A DNA stretch of 64,000 nucleotides, from the NCBI RefSeq assembly GCF_024171815.1, contig NZ_JAMTCJ010000002.1:806001-870000 (forward strand), in the 5' to 3' direction. Source of the DNA: Williamsia maris. GTDB taxonomy: Bacteria > Actinomycetota > Actinomycetes > Mycobacteriales > Mycobacteriaceae. Position 1 is the first letter of the stretch. Every line of letters starts with the position of its first letter. The notes beneath the pieces are model-generated. The model was not told the origin of the DNA. It made no database searches and saw only the letters and a program-made list of their open reading frames with translations. The position numbers were made by a program, and so were the translations under genes. This document shows, piece after piece, positions 1,866-7,214 of the stretch.

Positions 1866-3080
1866 TCAGATGATGGTGTGCAGCGGCGGTGGTGTTCCGT
1901 GCAGTACGTAGCGGCCCAGGTGTTGGTACTTCCAACGGACCGGATCGTGCAGCGTGTGGGTGCGCGCGTTGCGCCAGAAGTGGTGCAGGTTGAGGTCGTT
2001 GGCGGCGCTCCGCGTGCCCGACACCTCGAACAGTGCGCTCGACACCTCGTTGGCGGCGCGGTCGGAGGTGACCTTTGCGGTCGCGACCGCCACCGATGCC
2101 TCGGCGGCGAGCAGTACCGGATCGTCGCCGGAGAGCTGCATCGCGTCGACGGCGCGACCGGCCACCTCGAGGGTCGCCTCGGCAGCGGAGACCACCACGG
2201 AGAGCTCACCGAAGCGTTGGATCAGTAGAGGGTCGTCGGCTGCGTGCTCGACCTCGGCCTCCCACCACGGCCTCGACAGGGTGCGAACACAATCGACCGC
2301 AGAATGCAGTGCGCCGGCGGCGATCCCGGTGTCGATGGCGGCGTGGAGGAGTTGTGAGAACGCGCCGAAGCCCGTGGGGGCGTCGACTGCGGCGTCGCGG
2401 GCGATGACATCGGCAGCGGCGACGGCGACATCGTCGAACACGACCGTCCCGCTCCCCGACGTACGTTGCCCGATCCCGTCCCAGTCGTCGATGATCTCGA
2501 CACCGTCGGCGTCGGATCGGACGAAAACGGTGTACTCGCCTGCGAGTAGTTCGTCCGCATCGGTGTCGAGCCGGGCCAGCACCGCGAGGGTGTCGGCGTG
2601 CAGCGAACCGGTGCAGTAGAACTTGGTCCCGACGAGGCGGAAGTCGTTGCCGTCGGGGGAGATCCGGGTCTCGATGAGGTTGGACAGCGCCGTGTCGCGT
2701 TCAGCGTGGGCGTTGGCGAGCAGCCCTCCGGAGAGGATGTGCGTGAACAACTTGTGCCGCTGATCCGCGGTGCCGGCGAGCCTCAGTAGGTTGGCCTGCA
2801 CGAAGTGACTCTGGGGGATCTGCGCCACGTTCGGGTCTGCGGCGGCGATGATGCGGAACACCTCGGCCACCGAGGACGGGGGCAGTCCGGCGCCCCCGTA
2901 CTGCACCGGGACCGTGATCGCGAGCAGTCCCGAGGCGGCGAGTTCGGCGATCTCCGTGTGCGGGAGTCGACGATGGCGATCGCGATCGGCCGCACCCGGA
3001 CCGAATCGTGCCGCGAGCAGGCGCGCGGAATCCAGTGCCTGCTCGCGTGATCCGATCCGGGTTGCGGCGACCGCGGTCAT
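1866..3080 (-). CDS. sfnB: SfnB/DszC-like flavin-dependent oxidoreductase (acyl-CoA dehydrogenase fold)
   Basis: A 404-residue protein of the acyl-CoA dehydrogenase fold, closest in pattern to the SfnB sulfur-acquisition oxidoreductases and DszC-type flavin monooxygenases. The N-terminal helical domain covers about residues 10-125 (HTEIAELAASGLLAITVP, GGAGLPPSSVAEVFRIIA), the central beta domain 125-230 (GTKFYCTGSLHADTLAV), and the C-terminal helical domain 240-400, ending HLGRYVLHGTPPP. The DszC-like group uses reduced FMN and oxygen on organosulfur compounds rather than dehydrogenating CoA esters. The start at 3080 lies three bases after the stop of sfnG, so the two are one operon and probably act in sequence in use of dimethyl sulfone or related sulfones as sulfur source. 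The exact substrate is inferred from context. Confidence 0.82.
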   Translation of the reverse strand: MTAVAATRIGSREQALDSARLLAARFGPGAADRDRHRRLPHTEIAELAASGLLAITVPVQYGGAGLPPSSVAEVFRIIAAADPNVAQIPQSHFVQANLLRLAGTADQRHKLFTHILSGGLLANAHAERDTALSNLIETRISPDGNDFRLVGTKFYCTGSLHADTLAVLARLDTDADELLAGEYTVFVRSDADGVEIIDDWDGIGQRTSGSGTVVFDDVAVAAADVIARDAAVDAPTGFGAFSQLLHAAIDTGIAAGALHSAVDCVRTLSRPWWEAEVEHAADDPLLIQRFGELSVVVSAAEATLEVAGRAVDAMQLSGDDPVLLAAEASVAVATAKVTSDRAANEVSSALFEVSGTRSAANDLNLHHFWRNARTHTLHDPVRWKYQHLGRYVLHGTPPPLHTII

Positions 3081-3082
3081 TG

Positions 3083-4189
3083 TCAGGCCGAGACCTTCTC
3101 GGCGGCCTCGAGCTCGCGGACGAGCGGCATGACCTTCTCGCCGAAGTACTCGATCTCCTCCTGGAAGTGCAGGAAGCCACCGAGGATGAGGTCGACACCG
3201 AGCTTCTTGTAGGCGACGATGCGCTCGGCGATCTGCTCGGGCGTACCGATCAGCTGGGTCTTGAACCCGTCGTTGTACTGGACGAGGTCCTCGAACTTCG
3301 AGTCGGCCCACATGCCCTTGCCGTCCGAGGTGGACTTACCGGCCTGCTGCACCGAGTCGCGGAAGCCTTCCACCGCAGGCTTGTTGGCCTTCTCGATGAT
3401 CTCGCGCAGGGTGTCGCGGGCTTCGGACTCGGTGTCGCGGGCGATGATGAAGCCGTTCAGACCGAATCGGGTCTCGCGGTTGTGGGCCTGGGCGACCGTG
3501 CGCAGATCCTCGATCTGCTCGGTGACGCCGTCGAAGTCCTTGCCGTTGGAGAAGTACCAGTCGGCGAACTGGCCGCCGTTGCGACGGGCCGCCGACGAGT
3601 TGCCACCCTGGAACAGTTCCGGGTTCGGACGCTCGGGGGTGTTGAGCGGCTTGGGCTTGAGGGTGAAGTCGCGGATGCGGTAGAAGTCGCCGGCGAACTC
3701 GACGTTGTCCTCGGTCCAGATCTTGCGGATGACCTCGAGGAACTCCGCGCTGCGACGGTAACGCTCGTCGTGCTCGAGCCACGGCTCGCCGAGGGCTTTG
3801 AACTCACCGGAGAACCAGCCGGAGACGACGTTGATCGCGAACCGGCCGTTCGACAGGTGGTCGGCGGTCGCGCCGAACTTCGCCAGCACGGCGGGATGCC
3901 ACAGGCCGGGGTGGATCGCGGTGATCACCTTGAGCTTCTCGGTCGCCATCAGCAGCGCGAGCGAGAACGACGTCGACTCGTGCTGGAACTCGGCGCCGTA
4001 GGACGCCATGTACCGCACCTGCGACAGGGCGTACTCGAAGCCGACGCGCTCGGCGGTCTGCGCGAGCTTCTTGTTGTACTCGAATTCCCAGTTGGTGCGC
4101 TGCTCGATCTCGCTGGTGACGAGACCGCCGCTGACGTTGGGGACCCAATACGCGAACTTGACCTCGTCCGCGATCTTCTCGGTGCTCAT
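3083..4189 (-). CDS. sfnG: Dimethylsulfone monooxygenase-like FMNH2-dependent enzyme
   Basis: A 368-residue bacterial-luciferase-like (LLM class) monooxygenase resembling SfnG, which converts dimethyl sulfone to methanesulfinate using FMNH2 from a separate reductase. The whole chain is a TIM-barrel flavin domain: FAYWVPNVSGGLV at the N-terminus, ITAIHPGLWHPAVLAKFGA, GRFAINVVSGWFSGEF (flavin phosphate region) and LILGGFLHFQEEIEYFGE at the C-terminus are conserved LLM segments. I chose the ATG at 4189 because it has a good AAAGAG ribosome site; the frame is open further upstream without one. It lies 52 bases downstream of ssuD and three bases upstream of sfnB, forming ssuD-sfnG-sfnB. Together these could take sulfones through sulfinates/sulfonates to sulfite. 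No flavin reductase gene is in the cluster, so FMNH2 must come from elsewhere. Confidence 0.88.
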   Translation of the reverse strand: MSTEKIADEVKFAYWVPNVSGGLVTSEIEQRTNWEFEYNKKLAQTAERVGFEYALSQVRYMASYGAEFQHESTSFSLALLMATEKLKVITAIHPGLWHPAVLAKFGATADHLSNGRFAINVVSGWFSGEFKALGEPWLEHDERYRRSAEFLEVIRKIWTEDNVEFAGDFYRIRDFTLKPKPLNTPERPNPELFQGGNSSAARRNGGQFADWYFSNGKDFDGVTEQIEDLRTVAQAHNRETRFGLNGFIIARDTESEARDTLREIIEKANKPAVEGFRDSVQQAGKSTSDGKGMWADSKFEDLVQYNDGFKTQLIGTPEQIAERIVAYKKLGVDLILGGFLHFQEEIEYFGEKVMPLVRELEAAEKVSA

Positions 4190-4241
4190 TGCGACTCTTT
4201 CTTGTTGACTATGGATCGTTGATGCTCTTCTACACTCTGAC

Positions 4242-5420
4242 TCACGACGCGCCGGATGGTTCCAGGGTGGGTAGAAAAGCGCCTCGAACTGGCTCGACGG
4301 ATTCTTCTGCGGAATCGAGCAGGCCTCGCCGACGCAACGCCGGGCGTACGCCCTCGCCCACGTGGTACGCCTCCTCGACGTGCGGGTAGCCCGAGAGGAT
4401 GAAGTGGTCGATGCCGAGGTCGGCGTACTCGGAGATGCGTTCGGCGACCTCGTCGTACGACCCGACCAGAGCGGTACCGGCGCCACCACGCACCAGACCG
4501 ACGCCGCTCCACAGGTTCGGGTAGATCTCCAGGGTGCGGGCGTCGCCACCGGCGACGTAGGCGTCCCCGCCGCCGTGCAGGTCACGCATCCGACGCTGAC
4601 CTTCGGACTCGGATCGGCGCAACGACGCCTGGGCGTTCTCGATCACCGTCGGGTCCAGCGAGCTGAGCAGTCGGTCGGCCTCGGCCCACGCCGCCTCGGA
4701 GGTCTCCCGGGCGATGACGTGCAGCCTGATCCCGAATCCGGGCGTCCGGTTCAGCGGCGCCGCGAGTCCGCGGATCCAATCCAGCTTCTCGGCAACCGCC
4801 GCGGGCGGCTCACCCCAGGTGAGATAGGTGTCGGCGTGCGCCGCCGCGACAGCGCCCGCGGCTGGCGACGACCCGCCGAAGAAGATCGGGGGCAGCGGAT
4901 CGGGACGACGGGCCAGCGACGCGCCCTCGACCCGCAGGTGCTTGCCGTTGAACGACAACGGCTCGTCGGACGTCCACAGCCGGTTGATGATGTCGAGGTA
5001 CTCCCCGCACCGCTCGTAGCGGGCGTCCTTCGACAGGAAGTCGCCGAACGCGCGTTGCTCGCTCGACTCGCCGCCGGTGACGACGTTGAGCAGCAGACGT
5101 CCCTTCGACTGCCACTGCAGTGTCGCGGCCATCTGCGCCGACAGTGTCGGGCTGGTCAGGCCGGGGCGAAGTGCGACAAGGAATTTGAGCGTCTCGGTGG
5201 TCTCGACGAGCATCGCCGTCGACAACCATGCGTCCTCACACCACAGCCCGGTCGGGGTGAGCACCGACTCGAATCCGTTGACCTCGGCGGCCCCGGCGAG
5301 CTGCTTGAGGTAGCGGAGGTCGGCGGGGCGATCGCCCGACATGGACGACCCGTGGCCGCCGGCCATCAGGTTCCGGGAGTCCCCGTACGTGGGCAGGAAC
5401 CAGTGGAGACGAACAGACAC
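4242..5420 (-). CDS. ssuD: Alkanesulfonate monooxygenase
   Basis: A 392-residue FMNH2-dependent LLM-class monooxygenase of the SsuD family, which cleaves C1 and longer alkanesulfonates to aldehyde and sulfite. Recognisable segments are RLHWFLPTYGDSRNL near the N-terminus, ALRPGLTSPTLSAQMAATLQ, LLLNVVTGGESSEQRAFGD (flavin and sulfonate binding), PIFFGGSSPAAGAVAA and HFILSGYPHVEEAYHVGEG near the C-terminus. Length fits the family. The start is GTG at 5420, preceded by AAAGGTG. It is the first gene of the minus-strand organosulfur operon with sfnG and sfnB, and the 5421-5867 gap is shared with the divergent ROK regulator. No ssuABC transporter accompanies it here. Regulation by the neighbouring SsuR-like protein is likely, by analogy with Corynebacterium glutamicum. 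Confidence 0.9.
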   Translation of the reverse strand: MSVRLHWFLPTYGDSRNLMAGGHGSSMSGDRPADLRYLKQLAGAAEVNGFESVLTPTGLWCEDAWLSTAMLVETTETLKFLVALRPGLTSPTLSAQMAATLQWQSKGRLLLNVVTGGESSEQRAFGDFLSKDARYERCGEYLDIINRLWTSDEPLSFNGKHLRVEGASLARRPDPLPPIFFGGSSPAAGAVAAAHADTYLTWGEPPAAVAEKLDWIRGLAAPLNRTPGFGIRLHVIARETSEAAWAEADRLLSSLDPTVIENAQASLRRSESEGQRRMRDLHGGGDAYVAGGDARTLEIYPNLWSGVGLVRGGAGTALVGSYDEVAERISEYADLGIDHFILSGYPHVEEAYHVGEGVRPALRRRGLLDSAEESVEPVRGAFLPTLEPSGAS

Positions 5421-5627
5421 ACAGACACCTTTCGCGAGACGGGGCTCGAGGAGGGGACAACGGTGATTCAGGCGAGGTCGCCCACCAGTCTCACCGCTCG
5501 GGACGCGGGACCCGGGTCTTTGGATCGCCGTGATCGCAACCCGTTGGCAGGGCTGTGAGCTGGCTAGAATCCGCGCACAGCGCGTCTACCTGCGGGTGTG
5601 TCGAGCCCGCGGCGACGGCGCTGACCT

Positions 5628-5663
5628 TTGCCGCCGACAGTTCATGTTGCTAGATTGGCGTTC
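5628..5663 (+). promoter_or_regulatory. Leaderless promoter of the Cys-Cys leader ORF
   Basis: TTGCCG (5628-5633), 17 bases, TAGATT (5651-5656), 7 bases, then ATG at 5664. Spacing and boxes match a SigA-type actinobacterial promoter, and the predicted start of transcription coincides with the A of the ATG. The rest of the 5421-5867 gap holds the leader ORF, a small hairpin and presumably the ssuD promoter on the other strand, for which I see no convincing boxes. A TAGAAT at 5575-5580 lacks a spaced -35. Confidence 0.7.
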
Positions 5664-5756
5664 ATGCCGAGCTCGACGTCGCACATCCCGGAGATCACCT
5701 ACGTGATCACCGCTTTGGGCTGCCGTTTGCCGTTCGTGCGTCTCTTCTGTTGTTGA
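5664..5756 (+). CDS. Leaderless 30-residue leader peptide ending Cys-Cys (putative cysteine-responsive attenuator)
   Basis: A 30-codon ORF starting MPSSTSHIPEI and ending GCRLPFVRLFCC followed directly by TGA. Three of its last eleven residues are cysteine, with two tandem Cys codons (TGT TGT) before the stop. Its promoter predicts a leaderless mRNA. Short leaderless ORFs with terminal Cys runs are known in mycobacteria as cysteine-responsive attenuators: low Cys-tRNA stalls the ribosome and raises expression of the downstream sulfur genes. The next gene, 112 bases on, is the SsuR-like regulator, so the arrangement makes sense as cysteine sensing ahead of a sulfonate activator. Promoter, ORF and Cys codons are visible in the sequence; the mechanism here is inference. 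Confidence 0.7.
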   Translation: MPSSTSHIPEITYVITALGCRLPFVRLFCC

Positions 5757-5779
5757 GCGTTCTGACCCGACCCCGAGTC

Positions 5780-5802
5780 CGCCGATCCCCGGCCTCTCGG
5801 CG
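5780..5802 (+). other. Small hairpin between leader ORF and ROK regulator
   Basis: CGCCGA (5780-5785) and TCGGCG (5797-5802) are perfect 6-base arms with an 11-base loop, 23 bases after the leader stop codon. It could be part of the structure that responds to ribosome stalling on the leader. No U-run follows, so it is not a standard intrinsic terminator. Confidence 0.3.
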
Positions 5803-5867
5803 ATTCAGACATTCGCTCCCGTACCTGCGCTTTCCGCGTTCGGTGTGGCAGATTCAACGAGGACGAC

Positions 5868-7214
5868 ATGACCACGACGCTCGACCACCTCTCCAATCGC
5901 ACGCGACAGCCTGCCGCTCGCCGTCCGACCGAACAGCCGTCCCGGTCGCCTGCGCGACGCACACGTCAGACCGGTCCGCTGGCCTACGGCGGCTCGCGGG
6001 CCCTCAACGCGGGAGCGGCAACCGGGCCGTTCACCACGAGGACGCCGAAAATTCACATCGCAACCCCGCAGCTGCACCTGTCGACGAAGCCGTCGGCCGT
6101 CGTGCTGCGTACCGCACGGTTGCAGGGCCCGATCTTCCGTGACGACGCCGCGGCCCAGTCGGGCCTGAGCATCTCGACGGTCAACCGCCAGGTCAGCGCC
6201 CTCCTGAAGGCAGGCCTGCTGCGTGAACGCGCCGATCTGGCCCCGGCGGGTGCCATCGGTCGCCCTCGCCTCCCGTTCGAGCTCAACGTCGACAGCTTCC
6301 TGACGGTGGGCATCCACATCGGACTCAAGGTCACCTCGATCACCACCCATGACCTGCTGCATCGGGTGGTCGGGGCGATCCAGATCCCGACCCCGGCCGG
6401 CGACTCCGCCGAGCAGACCCTCACCGCGATCGGCGTGAGCGCACGACGCTTCGCCTCGCGGTGGCCGGCCCAGCGCGTGCTGTGGACCGGTGTCGCCATC
6501 GGCGGTCGGGTCTCGGAGGGCGGTCTCGTCGACCATCCGCGCCTGGGCTGGACCGGCGCCCCGGTCGGACCGGTGCTCTCGCAGGCTCTCGGACTGCCGG
6601 TGTCGGTGGCGTCGCACGTCGAGGCGATGGCCGCGGCCGAACTGCTGGTCAACCCCAAGGACGAGAGCGGCAGCTTCCTGTACTTCTACGCCCGCGAGAT
6701 GGTGGGCATCGCCTTCACCGTCGGCGGCACGGTCTACACCCCGACCGCAGGCCCGCCGGTCATCGGTCACTTCCCCAGCGGGCCCACAACGCTGCTCGAC
6801 CCGCACCGCACCGGACAGCTCGAGCCGTCGGCGAGTGACACCGGCGTCGTCGAGGCGGCCCGGGCGGCCGGGATGTCCGTCGAGAACATCGACGATGTCC
6901 ACGCCGCGGCCACCGCGGGTGACCCGACGGCGTCGGCGATCCTGCTCGAACGCGCCGAGGTCCTCGGCCGCGCGGTGTCGCTGGTCGCGGACATCTTCAA
7001 CCCCGACCACGTGATCCTGGGTGGTCAGGCGTTCACCGACTCCCCGTCGACATTGCCCGCGGTCGCCAAGGCCGTCCGCAACACCCCCGCCGCCCCGAAC
7101 CGCGACGTCCGCGTGACGCGCGCCGGTGCGTCGGTGCAGCAGCAGGCCGCGGGCGCGGTGTCGCTGGATGCCATCTACAGCGATCCGCTGGAGGCGCTCG
7201 CGCTCACCGCGTGA
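5868..7214 (+). CDS. ssuR: ROK-family transcriptional regulator, SsuR-like
   Basis: A 448-residue regulator with a winged helix-turn-helix at about residues 75-135 (DDAAAQSGLSISTVNRQVSA, LLKAGLLRERADL) followed by a ROK sugar-kinase-like domain (about 140-440: VGIHIGLKVTSITTHD, GVAIGGRVSEGG, NPDHVILGGQAFTD). The first 60 residues are Arg/Pro/Thr-rich and probably disordered. In Corynebacterium glutamicum the ROK protein SsuR activates sulfonate and sulfonate-ester genes when sulfate is scarce. This gene lies divergent from ssuD-sfnG-sfnB and behind a Cys-rich leader ORF, so the same job is likely. GAGGACGAC upstream of the ATG is the ribosome site. Its last 11 bases overlap the end of the convergent MFS gene. 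The symbol is assigned by family and context, not by a search. Confidence 0.78.
   Translation: MTTTLDHLSNRTRQPAARRPTEQPSRSPARRTRQTGPLAYGGSRALNAGAATGPFTTRTPKIHIATPQLHLSTKPSAVVLRTARLQGPIFRDDAAAQSGLSISTVNRQVSALLKAGLLRERADLAPAGAIGRPRLPFELNVDSFLTVGIHIGLKVTSITTHDLLHRVVGAIQIPTPAGDSAEQTLTAIGVSARRFASRWPAQRVLWTGVAIGGRVSEGGLVDHPRLGWTGAPVGPVLSQALGLPVSVASHVEAMAAAELLVNPKDESGSFLYFYAREMVGIAFTVGGTVYTPTAGPPVIGHFPSGPTTLLDPHRTGQLEPSASDTGVVEAARAAGMSVENIDDVHAAATAGDPTASAILLERAEVLGRAVSLVADIFNPDHVILGGQAFTDSPSTLPAVAKAVRNTPAAPNRDVRVTRAGASVQQQAAGAVSLDAIYSDPLEALALTA

Follow-up and report, generated by a model that had tools for sequence, protein, structure and literature searches.

A conserved, cysteine-ended leaderless-type upstream ORF before a ROK-family regulator gene of Williamsia maris, and its probable role in cysteine-responsive translational attenuation

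The window, the whole stretch of Williamsia maris DNA that was analysed (64,000 nucleotides, numbered from its first base), carries on its plus strand a gene for a 448-residue ROK-family transcriptional regulator (5868-7214; PF00480, E 1.2e-17). Divergent from it, on the minus strand, are an ssuD-like gene of the luciferase monooxygenase family (4242-5420), which scores below the cut-offs of the curated SsuD models, then sfnG, encoding dimethylsulfone monooxygenase (3083-4222; TIGR04021, 630.7 bits against a cut-off of 382.95), and an acyl-CoA-dehydrogenase-like gene (1866-3086). The original prediction had set the ROK gene opposite ssuD-sfnG-sfnB; the order is right, with the first gene ssuD-like and the sfnB place occupied by the acyl-CoA-dehydrogenase-like gene. 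The closest named record to the ROK protein is from a Williamsia metagenome-assembled genome (97% identity). Since the gene 3' of the ROK gene is convergent, the regulator gene is probably the sole downstream target of the leader described below. A sequence at 5522-5547, GGATCGCCGTGATCGCAACCCGTTGG, near the ssuD promoter, has by eye similar stretches at a comparable place in relatives and is a candidate operator.

Preceding the ROK gene on the plus strand is a leaderless-type upstream ORF (uORF) of 30 codons (5664-5756), MPSSTSHIPEITYVITALGCRLPFVRLFCC followed by a TGA stop, recognized from its reading frame, its relatives and the selection on it. Its Cys codons lie at 5721, 5748 and 5751, and it closes with TGT TGT TGA (...LFCC-stop), so that direct reading confirms the predicted 30-codon ORF ending FCC-stop with a third Cys nearby. 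The predicted promoter is also in place: TTGCCG (5628-5633), 17 nt, TAGATT (5651-5656) preceded by TGC as in an extended -10 element, and 7 nt to the ATG at 5664. A generic sigma-70 scan returned no promoter at its threshold here, and the promoter call therefore rests on the conservation of TGCTANNTT among relatives and on how it is spaced there. With a finding rule that permitted 4-9 nt between TANNNT and the start codon, the uORF began 6-7 nt after TANNNT, commonly as TGCTANNTT, in 66 of 68 loci. Leaderless mRNAs have this spacing, and it points to a transcript start at the A of ATG 5664 or directly beside it; judged by promoter spacing, the uORF is of the leaderless, Cys-ended type that had been proposed. 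Searching the window's own genome for TGCTANNTT followed by a start codon gave 10 rows (8 sites) against 11 for the control, and among these sites only the one in the window encodes a Cys-ended short ORF, although the pattern is narrow and other Cys uORFs are possible.

Could such an ORF be an accident of composition? When the interval 5421-5867 was shuffled with dinucleotides preserved, 4 of 5000 shuffles contained an ORF of 12-60 codons at leaderless spacing that had CC at most 6 residues from its end. At 69 of the 70 family loci examined, the related ROK gene has a Cys-ended uORF in front of it. The 70 comprise the family's 30 top-ranking ROK loci, all of which carry it (L016 included), and 40 further loci hand-picked across genera, and so not random, from a listing in which 193 of 201 genomes matched, in 31 genera. 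The automatic rule kept 38 of the 40; L087 has the peptide by eye and L078 lacks it. The uORF is also present at all 55 named loci (titled Williamsia, Gordonia, Jongsikchunia and one Kitasatospora), a set that shares some genomes with the family loci; 52 were found by the search and three (L122, L123 and L138) from reading frames without a spacing count. The record titled Kitasatospora arboriphila (L118) carries a Williamsia-type locus, and its title is probably wrong. In all, the arrangement of uORF and ROK gene was found in 21 of 22 genera sampled. The leader is real and conserved, not a product of chance. No NCBIfam or Pfam family matched the three versions of the peptide at E values up to 1.

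Is the leader then tied to the sulfonate genes or to the regulator? Within the fetched flank ssuD lies upstream at 18 of the 55 named loci, as against the uORF at all 55, and the uORF therefore goes with the regulator. In broad type the ROK protein matches CysR and SsuR of Corynebacterium glutamicum; SsuR is its putative identity, with a CysR- or Rv0485-type regulator as the alternatives. In all four genomes checked of g29, which is probably Mycobacterium, the ROK gene stands directly before mshA; it is 2-12 kb from mshA in seven others, and in the window's own genome the distance is 506 kb. Rv0485 is a ROK gene beside mshA (in the order Rv0485-Rv0486), and the g29 form of the uORF is presumably the published form of Rv0485/Msmeg_0932.

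The peptide contains a conserved core, ITYVITALGCRLPFVRLFC (5694-5750, plus strand), which in most Gordonia/Williamsia-type loci reads VTYV[TI]TALGCRLP[FL]AR[VL]LC. Among 53 distinct cores of this type (1375 pairs) dN was 0.076 and dS 0.707, a ratio of 0.108; these cores were picked by their Gly-Cys anchor only, a pattern that fixed residues having given 0.083. The majority base had a frequency of 0.92 at the first codon position, 0.97 at the second and 0.73 at the third. The substitution pattern suggests that the uORF is probably translated and its peptide under purifying selection. The more general motif VTYVTxALGxRLPxxRxLC was found in most genera sampled: as a pattern it matches 51 of 68 peptides, and L001 and L087 have it by eye. 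A second form of the core, VTYVTAALGSRLPLARELCC, was taken for that of Rhodococcus and Nocardia relatives.

The last codon of the core (5748-5750), which specifies the first terminal Cys, is TGT in all 53 distinct Gordonia/Williamsia-type cores; at the internal Cys, by contrast, 28 have TGC and 25 TGT. At least two Cys fall within the last 14 residues in 68 of 68 kept peptides, a count that is partly built in because the finding rule demanded Cys near the end. Tandem Cys occurs in 63 of the 68, and all five exceptions belong to the window's own genus: in five of eight Williamsia genomes the peptide ends ...LLCRTNL or ...ILCRTSL, with the core and one TGT kept. The expected conservation of the terminal Cys codons thus holds for the core with its single invariant TGT but not for the tandem pair. 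Other uORFs have Cys and no core: in g29 a run of at least three Cys is present in 12 of 12 loci, and Cys-ended uORFs of this kind occur in g24 and g20 as well.

Several features of these leaders may be recorded in their own right. At L060 the core is kept and the Cys cluster lies further downstream, as if modules had been exchanged; in L072, L084 and L096 the uORF is of another kind and ends MCRM.C..CC. In g29 uORFs such as L075 the Cys codons, TGTTGTTGT, are flanked by GTGCG and CGCAC (seen by eye, L075-L092); the two are complementary, and a hairpin loop around the Cys codons is therefore possible in some g29 uORFs. Most Gordonia-type leaders have GGAGGT (GGAGAT in the window) 7 nt 5' of in-frame codon 14 (5703-5705), which is GTG in 37 and ATG in 12 of 49 cores and is a possible internal start led by a Shine-Dalgarno sequence. 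Inside the uORF there is also an inverted repeat, GATCAC-CTAC-GTGATC (5693-5708; GGTCAC-N4-GTGACC in relatives), which could be an RNA hairpin or a DNA operator; six cells were changed on both sides of it (a count matched in 3 of 500 shuffles), and its covariation score was matched in 50 of 500.

Folding of the window's leader places the Shine-Dalgarno (SD) sequence of the ROK gene opposite the last uORF codons in the minimum-energy structure. The predicted anti-SD strand (5734-5752, plus strand) pairs with the SD and start codon (5855-5871, with GAGGA at 5859-5863), and pair probabilities reach 0.90 for 5749-5751 with 5856-5858. The whole leader is moderately more stable than its shuffles (z -1.54). 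Over 30 Gordonia/Williamsia-type loci the pairing of the SD with the uORF tail averaged 0.62 and exceeded 0.3 in 28. Synonymous recoding of the tail lowered it from 0.62 to 0.20, with 19 of the 30 loci at 5 in 100 or less, but the background for Cys in this recoding came from two Cys codons; with the Cys codons fixed the recoded value was 0.35, and 6 of 30 loci were at 5 in 100 or less. To simulate a stall, 27 nt were masked around a ribosome whose A site held the conserved Cys codon. SD accessibility then rose from 0.24 to 0.45, with an increase in 28 of 30 loci, against 0.24 and 0.27 for control blocks of equal size over the uORF start or within the spacer.

When partners were exchanged between loci, swapped pairs were only weakly worse than native ones, with permutation counts of 2516 in 20000 over the 30 loci and 713 in 20000 over 19 representatives, and covariation support for the SD pairing is weak. 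Duplex energies of long segments (-23.9 native, -22.7 swapped) were set aside because extended spurious helices dominate them. At 38 loci of other genera the pairing exceeded 0.3 in only four, and the simulated stall had no mean effect (0.38 to 0.39, higher in 21 of 38); L078 and L087 were left out of the folding sets. Either the assigned ROK starts are wrong in these genera or switching works differently there.

No intrinsic terminator, the mark of a classical transcription attenuator, was found in 5400-5900, and Rfam gave no match at E values up to 1. Between the uORF and the ROK gene, where the original prediction had put a small hairpin, there is predicted structure.

Conservation, leaderless spacing, selection, the predicted pairing and its predicted relief lead us to read the leader as a translational attenuator that responds to cysteine and acts on a sulfur-type ROK regulator, more of which would be made when cysteine is short; we put the probability of this at roughly 0.65. 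The transcript would begin at or beside the A of ATG 5664, so that a ribosome would load without a Shine-Dalgarno sequence and read the 30-codon uORF. With charged Cys-tRNA ample, the ribosome would complete the uORF and depart, and the freed uORF end (about 5734-5752) would pair with the ROK SD region (5855-5871) and keep ROK translation low. If cysteine were scarce, the ribosome would pause at the TGT codons at 5748 and 5751 and cover the anti-SD strand, leaving the ROK start free for more regulator to be made. The transcript start, the stall, the way in which expression responds and the consequences for the sulfonate and sulfone genes are all inferred. Attenuation by a Cys leader had been proposed for this locus at the outset, and what stands of the proposal is a uORF kept with the ROK gene and a predicted SD pairing that a stall could break; its tandem Cys codons are not general even in the genus, as the five Williamsia genomes testify.

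One feature sits uneasily with this attenuator: a counter of Cys codons has no need of a conserved core. The unexplained core suggests a role for the nascent peptide, by which VTYVTxALGxRLPxxRxLC in the exit tunnel, together with a Cys codon, would set an arrest or pause controlling ROK; the core would then belong to the sensor instead of being a spacer, and the same SD switch could be used. Its occurrence in most of the peptides, its low dN/dS and its retention in the Williamsia genomes without tandem Cys all speak for such a role. The core-less Cys-ended uORFs of g29, g24 and g20 do not, and part of the conservation appears to be at the RNA level, given the alternation of GTG and ATG at one Val/Met position and the hairpin there with some paired changes. 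We regard a nascent-peptide role as rather unlikely. Similarly tentative is the combined idea of a sensor with two inputs, in which the selected nascent-chain motif would set a programmed pause at the Cys codon shared with the anti-SD strand, one TGT being sufficient. If true, it would explain the loss of tandem Cys in sister species, and the core and Cys cluster as separable modules (L060).

The spacer between the uORF and the ROK gene (5757-5849, plus strand) is structured and C-rich (C 0.41, G 0.27), and Rho may therefore take part at a possible site there: completion of the uORF would expose the spacer to Rho, which would end transcription before ROK, and a stalled ribosome would prevent this. 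The content of C is more than 1.3 times that of G in the spacers of 29 of 30 Gordonia/Williamsia-type loci and of 55 of 68 loci overall, but C-rich spacers are common in genomes of this kind. Rho was proposed in 2005 for mycobacterial cys leaders, in a prediction that describes itself as weak (PMC1262725). With control already accounted for by the predicted SD switch and with an intrinsic terminator absent, we consider attenuation by Rho improbable.

The amino-acid conservation of the core would also suit a small protein acting in trans, its position before ROK being secondary. An order-wide profile search, however, matched 29 of 397 genomes, each of them once, and a ROK gene was present at 26 of the 29 loci, the exceptions being L058 and L059, both from another family, and L056, a contig piece of 1784 bases; the C-terminal codons, moreover, fit pairing with ROK, and we think a trans role very improbable. 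That the ORF is a chance one without function, as in the few shuffles that produced its like, is contradicted by conservation and selection and deserves next to no weight.

How does the leader compare with known systems? A literature search, with most subscription papers outside its scope, turned up no account of this leader from Williamsia or Gordonia. In M. smegmatis, Canestrari et al. reportedly described in 2020 leaderless polycysteine sORFs that act as attenuators, a stalled ribosome freeing a sequestered ribosome-binding site; citing papers describe cysteine-dependent translation attenuation in this species, and we counted it as precedent. The window shares with these sORFs the leaderless start spacing, consecutive Cys codons near the stop and, by folding only, a sequestered ribosome-binding site. 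It differs in that the target is a lone regulator gene and that sister species have no polycysteine tract.

Cys leader peptides were predicted before cys operons of Mycobacterium and other genera by Seliverstov et al. (2005), with Rho as the suggested agent. They too are short ORFs that lack a terminator and carry Cys codons close to the stop (PMC1262725), but they are located before biosynthetic operons. Here a ribosomal cysteine sensor would be placed above a regulator and not above biosynthetic enzymes, and one stall could reach a wider sulfur regulon. CysR and SsuR, the ROK proteins that govern sulfur assimilation and the use of sulfonates in C. glutamicum, offer a further comparison (PMC2580772): one such regulator controls the gene of another, and the cysR and ssuR genes, which McbR and CysR control, are themselves leaderless and so leave no room for a uORF.

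A closely similar system is the leaderless, Cys-rich uORF drawn by Shell et al. (2015) before Rv0485/Msmeg_0932 (PMC4633059). It is alike in being leaderless and Cys-rich and in preceding a ROK regulator gene. It is unlike in belonging to another genus, in that g29 lacks the conserved core of the window form, and in that the window's ROK gene is remote from mshA and adjoins ssuD-sfnG. This kind of leader is therefore already published for Rv0485/Msmeg_0932, and the unexplained feature here is the selected peptide core. The relatives form a natural series, of cores with and without tandem Cys and of Cys clusters without a core, that could separate the sensing of codon supply from that of the nascent peptide.
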